Below, one piece after another: positions 14,856-18,618 of a stretch of 64,000 nt of DNA. The DNA comes from Candidatus Eremiobacterota bacterium. Lineage in GTDB: Bacteria; Vulcanimicrobiota; CADAWZ01; Ess09-12. How positions within the stretch are numbered: position 1 is the stretch's first letter; each line of letters begins with the position of its first letter. A program made the position numbers and the translations under genes. Location: positions 62,001 through 126,000 of the forward strand of contig JAVHLM010000012.1 of assembly GCA_031082125.1 (NCBI GenBank). Reading direction: 5' to 3'. The notes below the pieces were generated by a model. The model was not told the DNA's origin. It saw only the letters and a list, made by a program, of their open reading frames with translations, and did no database searches.

Positions 14856-15560
14856 TCAGCTCACCTTTGCCACCTGCACCATCTCGTGGACCGCTCCGGG
14901 CTCAAGGATCAGAACCTGGGCCGCGGGATGGCGCTTTCCCACCGTTTCCCTGAAAACCTTGGGGTCCTGCCTTATGGGCTCGAAAGTGTTGTAGTGCATG
15001 GGAATCACAAGCGAGGGCTTCACCAGCTCCACGGCCTTTGCGGCGTCCCTTATCCCCATCGTGAAATGGTCGCCGATGGGGCAGAGGAGCACATCAATGG
15101 GTGTCATCTCGGCAATAAGGGCCATATCGCCGAAAAGGCAGGTATCACCGGTGTGATAGACCGTCGTGTCGCCCATGTGGACCACAAAGCCGCAGGGATT
15201 GCCCAGATAGTTCCCCTCGGGAGACGAGCTGCTGTGCCAGGCAGGCACCAGCTTCACCCACCCGAAATCAAACTTTATGGTGCCACCCATGTGGGCCCCT
15301 ATGGTTTTGGCGCCTTTGCCCGCGCAATAGTTGGCAAGCTCAAAGACGCCCAGTATGGGAGCTCCAGAGTGCTTGGAGATATCAATGGCATCGCCCAGGT
15401 GGTCGCCATGGCCATGGGTCACCAGTATGACCTTCGGCGAAAGCTCCGACGGCTTCACCTTTGCATTGGGGTTGCCGCTCAGGAAGGGGTCAATGAGAAC
15501 ACTCTGGCCTTTCTCCTCCAGAAGAAAGGCATCGTGACCGAAATAATGAATCTTCATCAT
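14856..15560 (-). CDS. UPF0173 family metal-dependent hydrolase (metallo-beta-lactamase fold)
   Basis: 234 residues with the small metallo-beta-lactamase fold of the UPF0173 (YtkL-like) family: MKIHYFGHDAFLLE, DPFLSGNP, the metal motif VTHGHGDHLGDA, HTGDTCLFGDM and the C-terminal HYNTF. The exact substrate of the family is not known. The ATG at 15560 lies correctly behind GGAGGAGG; an upstream TTG is too close. The start overlaps the stop of the histidine kinase gene (15557), so the two are translationally coupled. Confidence 0.9.
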   Translation of the reverse strand: MMKIHYFGHDAFLLEEKGQSVLIDPFLSGNPNAKVKPSELSPKVILVTHGHGDHLGDAIDISKHSGAPILGVFELANYCAGKGAKTIGAHMGGTIKFDFGWVKLVPAWHSSSSPEGNYLGNPCGFVVHMGDTTVYHTGDTCLFGDMALIAEMTPIDVLLCPIGDHFTMGIRDAAKAVELVKPSLVIPMHYNTFEPIRQDPKVFRETVGKRHPAAQVLILEPGAVHEMVQVAKVS

Positions 15561-17473
15561 GTGCAATCCTCCTCCACATTTCTCCTGCTCTCTTCCTGCC
15601 TGACGGGAATCCTCACGGTAAAAAGGGAGCCTTCATGTAATTTCGAAGCTGCCTCTATTGTTCCTCCATATTTCCTTACGATGTCCTGAGATATCGAGAG
15701 GCCCAGGCCGGCAGCCTTTCCCATCCCCTTGGTGGTGAAAAAGGGCTGGAAAGCCGATTTCATCACCTCTTCGCTCATCCCCGCGCCGTCATCTCCCACG
15801 GAGAAAAAGACCCCGCTCTCCTCCAGACCGCACCTTACCTCCAGGGTGCCCGAGCCGGAGCCCTTCTCGACGATGGCATCATAGGCGTTCATAAGCACAT
15901 TGGTCACCATCTGCGTGATATGGTTGGGATTTGCCGTCACGGCAGGCGTCTCGCCCAGGTTCTCCCTTATGATTATATTTGAAAGGGAGAAATGATCCTC
16001 CACGAGCTCAAGGCTGTCCTTCACGACAGCCCTCAGGTCAACGGGCCCCGGAGGCGCGTCGGCCTGCCTCGAGTAGCGCAGGAGCTTTTCAATGATGAGC
16101 TTGCATTGAAGGACAGCGCCCTCGGCCTCACCGAGGTTCTCCTTCAGATCATCCCTCCCCTCCAGGAAGGGAGCAAGGGTCTGGATATTCGTAAGGACTG
16201 CGCCGAGGGGGTTGTTCAGCTCATGGGCAACTCCGGCGGCAAGCTGGCCCACGGCGGCAATCCTGCTTGACTGGATGAGCCGTGCCTGGGCTTCCTTCAG
16301 CCTTTCATTGGCGATGACAGCCTCTTTATAAAGCTCAGCATTGATAATGGCAGACGAGGCCTGCGACGCCCCTATGCCAAGATACTGGCGGTCCTTGTCG
16401 CTGAAGTGATCCTTCAGGGCGAATAGTGCCCCCCTGAGGTTGTCGCCCTCGCCAACTGCCGTGAGGGTGAGCTCCTTCCCTTCGCTCACATGGTGCGCCA
16501 AATCGGGAACAAGATCCCCGCGGGCGATTACTTCTGTCGCCATGACAGGGGAATTTCCCCGCCTGGCAAACTGCGCCAGCGCCGAAGAGAGGGGCAGATC
16601 AGCAAGAGCTCCCTTCCCTGCGTGAAAAGAGGCATCACCGGCGCCTTCCCTGTGCAGCAGCACAATGACCCCATCCAGCTGAGCCACCTCGGTAATCTCA
16701 TCGGCCAATGATTTCAGCACGTCGCCCCTCGTAAGGCTCGAGCTGATAAGAGTGGTGTAACGGTAAAAGACATTGAGATCATCTTTTTTCTCGGCATCGG
16801 CGAAGGCCTTTTTCAGGAAGAAGTAAACAAGAACAAGGGGGATGACGATGAAAAGGACATAAAGGGGGCCCCAGCGGGCCTCAAGCACCACGGCGAGGAT
16901 GCCGAGGGGGGCCAGGGAGAGGTCCACAAGCCTCCCTCTCCTGTCATAATGCCTGAATGCCAGTGTGCCTTTCCCCCGCGCGAGGGAGGAATAGGGAAGC
17001 TCCCATAAGGAGAGGGCAAAGAACAGCACAATCGATGCAAGGAGAGGGAATATGACCAACCGATCAATGCTGCCGAAAGAGAGTATTCCCCCGGCGGCAC
17101 GGAAGAAAAAGCCCGACACCAGTGAGACCAGGGCCAGGTGAAGGGGATGGGGATAGCCGCGGGGCACCACGGCCTTCCGAAGGATACCGGCTGTCAGGCG
17201 GAATGCAAGAACGGGAAGCACCGCGGGAATCCACGCAAAGGGGCCCAGCATCAATACCGAGACAAGAAGGGGGGGATAGACAGGAATGTATTCCCACCGC
17301 CCGCCGGGGAGTCGCAGGGAGGCAAGGCTCGCGATGAAAACGAGGAATGTGCAGAACACCAGCCGGGGAGGTGACGGAAGGGGGGCGAAGCGGAAAGAGA
17401 GCACTATGGCCACACCGCAGAGAAGGTATAGAAGAACGGCAAGCAGCTTCCTGGGAACCAAGGGGATGGTCAT
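15557..17473 (-). CDS. Membrane-bound GAF-containing sensor histidine kinase
   Basis: About 638 residues. Residues 1-225 hold some seven or eight hydrophobic helices (membrane sensor region); then a GAF domain (~235-385), a dimerisation domain with the phospho-acceptor in AAGVAHELNNPLGAV (His about residue 415), and an ATPase domain with N box NVLMNAYDAIVEK, G1 VGDDGAGM, F box PFFTTK and G2 GLGLSI. No response regulator is adjacent. The ATG at 17473 follows AAGGAGGGAG; a longer version from an ATG at 17509 would start inside a strong palindrome and has no ribosome site. Coupled downstream to the UPF0173 hydrolase. Confidence 0.9.
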   Translation of the reverse strand: MTIPLVPRKLLAVLLYLLCGVAIVLSFRFAPLPSPPRLVFCTFLVFIASLASLRLPGGRWEYIPVYPPLLVSVLMLGPFAWIPAVLPVLAFRLTAGILRKAVVPRGYPHPLHLALVSLVSGFFFRAAGGILSFGSIDRLVIFPLLASIVLFFALSLWELPYSSLARGKGTLAFRHYDRRGRLVDLSLAPLGILAVVLEARWGPLYVLFIVIPLVLVYFFLKKAFADAEKKDDLNVFYRYTTLISSSLTRGDVLKSLADEITEVAQLDGVIVLLHREGAGDASFHAGKGALADLPLSSALAQFARRGNSPVMATEVIARGDLVPDLAHHVSEGKELTLTAVGEGDNLRGALFALKDHFSDKDRQYLGIGASQASSAIINAELYKEAVIANERLKEAQARLIQSSRIAAVGQLAAGVAHELNNPLGAVLTNIQTLAPFLEGRDDLKENLGEAEGAVLQCKLIIEKLLRYSRQADAPPGPVDLRAVVKDSLELVEDHFSLSNIIIRENLGETPAVTANPNHITQMVTNVLMNAYDAIVEKGSGSGTLEVRCGLEESGVFFSVGDDGAGMSEEVMKSAFQPFFTTKGMGKAAGLGLSISQDIVRKYGGTIEAASKLHEGSLFTVRIPVRQEESRRNVEEDCT

Positions 17474-17498
17474 CTCCCTCCTTATACTCACCAGCATA

Positions 17499-17573
17499 AC
17501 TGACACCATGCGTATATGGCTCTGTTATCAAAATAAACCCCATTTTTGGATGGTGTTTATTTTGGGTGTCAGT
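17499..17573 (-). promoter_or_regulatory. Nested inverted repeats in the leader of the histidine kinase gene
   Basis: Outer arms ACTGACACC (17499-17507) and GGTGTCAGT (17565-17573) are perfect 9-bp complements. Inside lie CAAAATAAAC (17529-17538) and GTTTATTTTG (17555-17564), perfect 10-bp arms. A small CCAT/ATGG hairpin can form in the side loop. The whole lies just upstream of the chosen ribosome site, so it could be a structured mRNA leader or a double operator. Confidence 0.55.
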
Positions 17574-17832
17574 ATATACTCGAAGGGTTACTATTCTTCT
17601 TCAGGACGCCCTATTCCTATGCTTCGTGGCCTCCTGCCGGTTATTGAAAGAAAAAGGACAGGTGAAAATAAGATGAAAGGGGGCTTAAAAAAGGCTGAAA
17701 ATAATAAACAAAATGTAACCAAATTGTGAGGGGTTAAAAAGCCCGCTGCGACAAAGTTTCCTCCCCGAAAAGGGTCCTTTTGGGGGGCATTTCTGGTAAT
17801 AATTTATTTTTCAGTTTTTTTTCAGGCGCCTC
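17574..17832. other. Non-coding stretch with a GC-rich hairpin
   Basis: A+T-rich, no credible gene. A symmetric hairpin at 17763-17786 (CCCC, AAAAGG / CCTTTT, GGGG) lies downstream of the minus-strand gene 17833-18618; it lacks an immediate T-run, so it is only a possible terminator. Confidence 0.4.
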
Positions 17833-18618
17833 TTATGCCACGAGCTCGAAAGTGGCGAAATTGTAAACGTTCCTGTAATCTTCCTCGTCATCCATTGCTT
17901 CGTAAGTCCCCACGGCCTTCGGTGAGAGGGGGAGGGGCTTTGCAAGGTCCCAGCCGCCCGCGTTCTCATCCCACTCGGTCCTGCTCTTCTTGGGAGCTGA
18001 CTTCTGGCCTGCCTTCAGCACTTCCTGGTTGATGTCGTCAAGGACCTCGAGCCTGTCCCTGAGCTCCTGGCGGCTGTAGATTCCTTCGTAATCGTCGCTC
18101 TGGTCATACTCGGTCTGCACCCAGTCCTGGAGGTTCTTTGCGATAGAGGTGGGGTTCATCTTCTCTGCTTTCTTCTCGGCATTGATGACGTTCCACCAGG
18201 TGTTCTGGAGATGGGCGGGAAGCTCGCTCGCCCTGTTCGTGGTGCTCTGTCTCTGGGCCTCTCTGGGGGCTACGGCGCTCTGGAGCTCGGGTCTCACGGC
18301 GACCCTGTTCTCGGTGTAGCTTACCTGTGAATCGCTGGTCCTGTTGAAGAGCTTGTTGTTGAGCTCTTTGAAGAGGTTCAGTATGCCGTCGAACTCGCTG
18401 GTCTTCTTGCTCTCGTTGCTCTCGCCGCGGTAGAAGTCGGCGGGGGCGAAGTATCTCTCGGTGGCTCTCTCGGCTGCCTTGGTGAAGGAAGTCCTCTCGC
18501 TTGAGTTCCTGGCCTTCTTGAGGTGGTAGTTCGGAGGAAGGTTCTCTGCCGACACTTTATTGTATACAGCGTTCTTATACACTGTGTAGCTTTCCATCGG
18601 ATTTCTGTTCTCTATCAT
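17833..18618 (-). CDS. Hydrophilic soluble protein of unknown function
   Basis: About 261 residues beginning MIENRNPMESYTVYKNAVYNK, without signal peptide or membrane segment. It is highly charged, rich in Asn, Ser, Glu and Arg, and probably partly disordered; a helical stretch covers NLFKELNNKLFNRT and the C-terminal third is acidic (EAMDDEEDYRNVY). The ATG at 18618 has GGAGG 8 nt upstream; an ATG two codons earlier is too close. The gene is monocistronic. I do not recognise a family. Confidence 0.6.
   Translation of the reverse strand: MIENRNPMESYTVYKNAVYNKVSAENLPPNYHLKKARNSSERTSFTKAAERATERYFAPADFYRGESNESKKTSEFDGILNLFKELNNKLFNRTSDSQVSYTENRVAVRPELQSAVAPREAQRQSTTNRASELPAHLQNTWWNVINAEKKAEKMNPTSIAKNLQDWVQTEYDQSDDYEGIYSRQELRDRLEVLDDINQEVLKAGQKSAPKKSRTEWDENAGGWDLAKPLPLSPKAVGTYEAMDDEEDYRNVYNFATFELVA

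Follow-up and report, generated by a model that had tools for sequence, protein, structure and literature searches.

The locus examined here raises the question of why two palindromes should lie nested, one inside the other, immediately before the ribosome site of a histidine kinase gene. The stretch of Candidatus Eremiobacterota DNA that was analysed, 64,000 nucleotides in all, is referred to below as the window. The preliminary description had suggested that the palindromes could be either a structured leader RNA or an operator. We consider with good confidence that they are one copy of a short, non-autonomous mobile palindromic family, REP/MITE-like in its behaviour, here located just 5′ of the ribosome site of the kinase.

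The outer arms form a perfect pair (9/9), and the inner arms, of 15 nt each, are 93% complementary and contain a perfect 10-bp pair; both perfect pairs, of 9 and 10 bp, lie where the preliminary description had placed them. When nested perfect arms of at least 9 nt each with a gap of up to 66 nt were sought, 17499-17573 was the one occurrence in the window, and when the window was simulated 50 times with a first-order Markov model, 2 of the simulations contained such a nested pair. The fold of these 75 nt reached −25.8 kcal/mol, against −11.6 ± 2.8 in shuffled sequences (z −5.07), and none of the 200 shuffles was as good. Directly 3′ of the nested palindromes, on the kinase strand, stands a third hairpin, TTATGCT-GGTG-AGTATAA (P3), which overlaps the ribosome site AAGGAGG by its final two bases and is part of the unit. 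The palindromes are real, and the full unit is longer than the stretch first described (Table 1). Energy minimisation of the 95-nt unit folded alone gave the helices P1, P2 and P3 together with a minor helix of two pairs. Across the family, the architecture is that of an outer imperfect hairpin, composed of P1, a conserved bulge, P2 and a variable inner part, which is followed by the sequence-conserved 3′ hairpin P3. The consensus of P3 is TTATGCTCTGGAGTATAA. In the window, Rfam 15 gave no match above the gathering score.

Table 1. Coordinates of the element copy, its parts and the adjoining genes in the window.
Feature	Position	Strand	Basis
Whole element copy, 95 nt	17482-17576	−	Covariance model: 32.7 bits, E 8.3e-4, whole genome
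Outer stem P1, 5′ arm	17565-17573	−	
Outer stem P1, 3′ arm	17499-17507	−	
Inner stem P2, 5′ arm; this inner part varies across the family	17550-17564	−	
Inner stem P2, 3′ arm	17529-17543	−	
3′ hairpin P3, most sequence-conserved part of the family; base 17499 common to P1	17482-17499	−	
Kinase ribosome site AAGGAGG	17477-17483	−	Sequence
Histidine kinase gene (HisKA PF00512, HATPase_c PF02518)	15557-17473	−	
Metallo-beta-lactamase-fold hydrolase gene (PF13483), overlaps the kinase stop	14856-15560	−	

The source genome (7.43 Mb in 69 contigs, 97.6% complete) was searched with a 131-nt query. A second copy was found on contig C31, matching at 99% over 75 nt with different flanks, along with several short matches, eight of which span both the P1 3′ arm and the 3′ hairpin. 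A pattern made for the P1 3′ arm and P3 matched 49 times, against 2 for its reversed control. A covariance model, R1, was then built from 13 compact copies; it gave at least 74 matches at E ≤ 1 and at least 55 at E ≤ 0.01. The window copy is one of these, at a modest score (Table 1). As a single place is matched on both strands, the 55 matches correspond to at least 54 places. The copy counts are lower bounds because R1 scored 150 of the 2392-2478 first-look candidates. Like a MITE, the element is small and non-autonomous and occurs in many copies with unrelated flanks and sharp edges. Its length is mostly 55-107 nt across the family. There is a 106-nt subfamily of four copies, 94-97% alike over 106-123 nt, whose surrounding stretches of about 7.5 kb are otherwise unmatched; further copies of it carry an internal insert (C15:105009-105033) or an internal deletion (C18:152459-152496). 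Copies L043 and L050, which have in common an inner part with GATCCCT...TGATGAG, represent a longer form of 105-107 nt, as do L053 and L056 more loosely. By eye, a second small hairpin type with GTCCCC/GGGGAC-like arms was noted inside or at the edge of copies L002 (C31), L004 (C4) and L192 (C15); it is perhaps a further mobile palindrome.

Outside the source genome, 27 relatives were searched, four of the same order and 23 of the same phylum, and none had an R1 match at E ≤ 0.01 among the 150 candidates scored per genome. An exact 23-nt pattern, of a kind that misses diverged copies, had no match in a bacterial species collection from which the source genome is possibly excluded, nor in viral contigs, and three consensus strings of the element did not occur in the literature searched.

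The movement of the element can be read at several sites. At C44:30812, a 51-nt unit has been inserted into a stretch that also occurs, intact, at two other places on C44, with identical flanks over the length compared. The site can be read without mismatch if 0 or 1 nt was duplicated; a 2-nt duplication requires one mismatch. The insert stands in the loop of a hairpin with the same fold; its own structure is a bulged hairpin and, after it, a hairpin of 5 bp that ends in GAGTAG. Its P1 letters are quite different and its match to R1 is weak (8.0 bits, E 0.055 in 601 bases); the fold and P3 suggest that it is a distant member of the family. At C44:48539-49285, a copy splits a gene for a PD-(D/E)XK nuclease family transposase (PF12784), both halves of which match PF12784. 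The paralogues on C27 and C13 are uninterrupted at the insertion point, and the net difference from them is 60 nt; any duplication length from 0 to 3 nt suits this site equally well. Finally, a 63-nt copy splits an IS91-type transposase (IS91-family Y2; PF04986, PF14319; L120, C44, 523-1710) and gives it a stop codon, and the rest of the frame continues behind. No intact counterpart of this site was found in the source genome. Near-identical copies of the element occupy the same point in two more transposase remnants, on C44 and C4, which does not require that the insertions were independent. More transposase fragments were observed on several contigs. Ten plasmid homologues of the IS91-type transposase were listed, 25-29% identical. 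Two of these ten, H6 and H7, can be aligned across the joint without a break (in H6, the alignment extends only 7 residues past it), and the remaining ones listed align in two pieces or in places stopping near the joint. The idea that an IS91-type transposon naturally ends in this element was rejected, since the transposase frame continues behind the copy and two homologues align through the joint. The insertion into a hairpin of its own fold, together with the split PF12784 gene and the split IS91-type transposase, argues for a non-autonomous mobile palindrome. The unit is repeated, and copies of it have entered other sequences; at the single site where the flanks are identical, no more than 1 nt was duplicated. 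Retrotransposition was also considered and set aside; fragments with only the left end and fragments with only the right end both occur.

The conservation of the pairing was evaluated in an alignment (A2) of 61 distinct rows fitted to the covariance model, in which 85.5% of the cells pair. Double-changed cells numbered 64, whereas shuffles gave 18.3 ± 3.7, and the covariation score was 0.194 against 0.121; for both, none of 500 shuffles was as high. Changes on both sides were seen in 13 of the 16 P1/P2 pairs and in 3 of the 6 P3 pairs. When the partners were slid by 1-3 columns, pairing fell to 23-50% and the score to 0.06 or less; the number of pairs changed on both sides is 16, a value that the −1 slide also reaches. 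The signal was weaker in a MAFFT alignment of 13 rows, with 9 double-changed cells against 3.3 ± 1.5 (1 of 500 shuffles as high) and a number of pair types no higher than in shuffles (219 of 500). Regarding the strand, a G-T pair of P3 is kept in 48 of 61 rows, where the opposite strand would have an A-C mismatch; in P1/P2 there is only a weak indication of the strand (46 G-T cells and 28 A-C cells, with a p of 0.047 that ignores the kinship of the copies). Covariation is therefore present within the repeat family and conservation spans the whole folded unit; the letters of P1 change and the pairing stays.

The gene context was described for 61 copies (the 13 weaker-scoring of the 74 were left out), with genes called by our own script. 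The copies lie mostly between genes, and some lie inside coding sequences. One of the 61 has no right neighbour. Among the 60 with both neighbours, 24 are in divergent, 33 in co-directional (20 and 13 in each sense) and 3 in convergent gaps, against 39%, 46% and 15% of the sampled intergenic bases, so that the copies are scarce in convergent gaps. The left neighbour faces away in 45 of 61 copies (74%), somewhat above the length-weighted expectation of about 62%, and the right neighbour in 37 of 60, for which the expectation is also about 62%. Thus, the copies roughly track intergenic space, without a fixed sense relative to genes.

A key aspect is what this means for the kinase itself. From the sequence and the script gene call, its start is most likely the ATG at 17473 and not the longest open reading frame start at 17509, and the element stands, as had been described, directly 5′ of the ribosome site. 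The best-scoring match of the kinase among the 27 relatives is 32% identical, with shorter ones up to 41%, and those in the bacterial species collection are 26-37% identical; none of them is usable as an orthologue for comparing leaders. Between the kinase and the next gene, terminator-like hairpins were observed on the plus strand (17761-17788; 2 found against 0.7 expected). If the unit were a dedicated leader RNA, acting like an attenuator or riboswitch on the translation of both the kinase and the coupled hydrolase, this would agree with the strong fold, with pairing conserved family-wide, with the adjoining ribosome site and with the overlap of the two genes. When 17470-17600 was folded alone, moreover, the ribosome site paired with a CCCUUC that immediately precedes the unit; however, once the start of the kinase gene was included, it paired mostly with the coding region instead, and the predicted pairing therefore varies with the stretch that is folded. 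Against a dedicated leader stand also the lack of an Rfam match in the window, the 27 relatives in which R1 (E ≤ 0.01) did not find the element, and the copies beside and inside unrelated genes. An operator for a dimeric regulator, the other proposal, could point to P3, which nearly forms an 18-bp palindrome and is better conserved than any other part, but conservation extends over the whole folded unit and copies lie inside coding sequences. Neither a purpose-built leader switch nor an operator of one regulator explains a dispersal to at least 54 places, in both senses relative to genes and with readable insertions. If it is transcribed, the unit is a structured leader; as a switch made for the kinase it is very unlikely, and the operator, which these results do not support, is more improbable still.

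A different relation with the kinase would be co-option, in which the hairpins of an inserted mobile repeat, carried in the kinase transcript, now alter translation or mRNA stability. It is in line with this that P3 overlaps the ribosome site, that some of the 61 copies have GGAG no more than 14 nt from an end (the right end in 7, the left end in 11), and that MITE hairpins are said to affect neighbouring mRNAs (PMC2229807). On the other hand, the only promoter-like match in 17440-17860 (17730-17701, kinase strand) is at chance level, 1 found against 0.7 expected. We regard co-option as possible, although somewhat doubtful, and an effect on kinase expression would in any case be a by-product of the insertion of the element. 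Within the mobile-repeat reading, it was also considered whether the family is a Tc1/IS630-type MITE with a TA target duplication, which its ends, TATACT...AGTATA, resemble. A terminal TA is typical of bacterial MITEs (PMC2229807), the PF12784 site permits a duplication of 0-3 nt, and 36 of 58 copies have TA as their two leftmost letters; the other 22 do not, and the 51-nt insertion, though of a distant member, permits at most 1 nt. The flanks of 58 copies (3 of the 61 were dropped as duplicates or as the opposite strand of one place) were scanned at 294 settings of length and offset. No direct repeats of 4 nt or more stood clearly beyond shuffles (best 8/200), and at 2-3 nt there were small excesses, the best being 6 observed against 1.8 (0/200), about what 294 settings can give. 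P1, besides, covaries and is not a fixed terminal repeat. A short duplication such as TA is possible in the family, while its assignment to the Tc1/IS630 type seems to us distinctly unlikely.

Since P1 keeps pairing while its letters change, we infer that the mobile palindrome is probably recognised as a folded single strand and that it would be mobilised by an enzyme acting in trans. The known systems of this style, IS200/IS605 and TnpA_REP, use Y1 transposases (PMC6006769, PMC8266576). In the source genome, at 97.6% completeness and in 69 contigs, no Y1 transposase (PF01797) was matched at E ≤ 0.001, and 12 of the 28 genomes searched had a PF01797 match. The surroundings of 16 isolated left ends were examined for an autonomous parent and contained no right end with fewer than 5 mismatches, and in the assembly stretches that were read no insertion sequence with TATACT/AGTATA ends was seen. 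The mover could have been lost, be unassembled or be an enzyme of another kind. Only tentatively, as an idea on balance unlikely, do we put forward that these are mobile hairpins recognised by shape, with little or no target duplication, a single-strand mover other than Y1 and insertion into the loops of hairpins of their own architecture.

By comparison with other systems, the small dispersed repeats of cyanobacteria are also small mobile palindromes that enter other repeats. The attC sites of integrons carry GTTRRRY and RYYYAAC boxes and form arrays beside the integrase; the GTTATGC of the element consensus misfits GTTRRRY, and the copies are dispersed. The REP/REPIN elements served by RAYT (TnpA_REP) are likewise short palindromic units in many copies, mostly extragenic, with a bulged hairpin that is probably handled single-stranded (PMC3116915, PMC6006769, PMC8266576). 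REPs have GTAG or GTGG 5′ of the hairpin foot, whereas in our element GTAG at the foot of P1 or P3 occurs in 0 of 61 distinct rows, and a Y1 transposase was not found in its genome; a REPIN is an inverted REP doublet, unlike an outer covarying hairpin with one conserved hairpin at one end. The CGTC-tagged REPs, reported without a dedicated transposase, are described in PMC3733652 as an unpaired CGTC tag, a stem of 8-9 bp starting with AT, a loop of 4-5 nt and a CCA tail. Before P3, the element has CGTC in 35 of 61 rows, TGTC in 7 and CCTC in 2, variants that are reported for the CGTC-tagged REPs too (PMC3733652); however, its CGTC is paired in P1, its P3 stem begins with TT and not AT, and a CCA tail is present in 0 of 61 rows. 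With the Correia/NEMIS, RUP and ERIC MITEs (PMC2229807, PMC10969869), it has in common a small size, non-autonomy, folding into stem-loops, intergenic and some intragenic copies, and TA at many termini. It differs from bacterial MITEs in that no target duplication of 2 nt or more is seen at the one exactly readable site, and in that the letters of P1 change together and do not form fixed terminal repeats. The palindromic elements of Rickettsia are also small mobile palindromes that enter genes (PMC2229807).

The tempting reading of a kinase riboswitch thus gives way to the better supported one of a mobile repeat, a mobile palindrome known so far from one genome. In its arms the pairing persists as the letters change, and the enzyme class known for moving such hairpins was not found in that genome. 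The spread of palindromes without a dedicated transposase becomes, in this way, testable in one organism.
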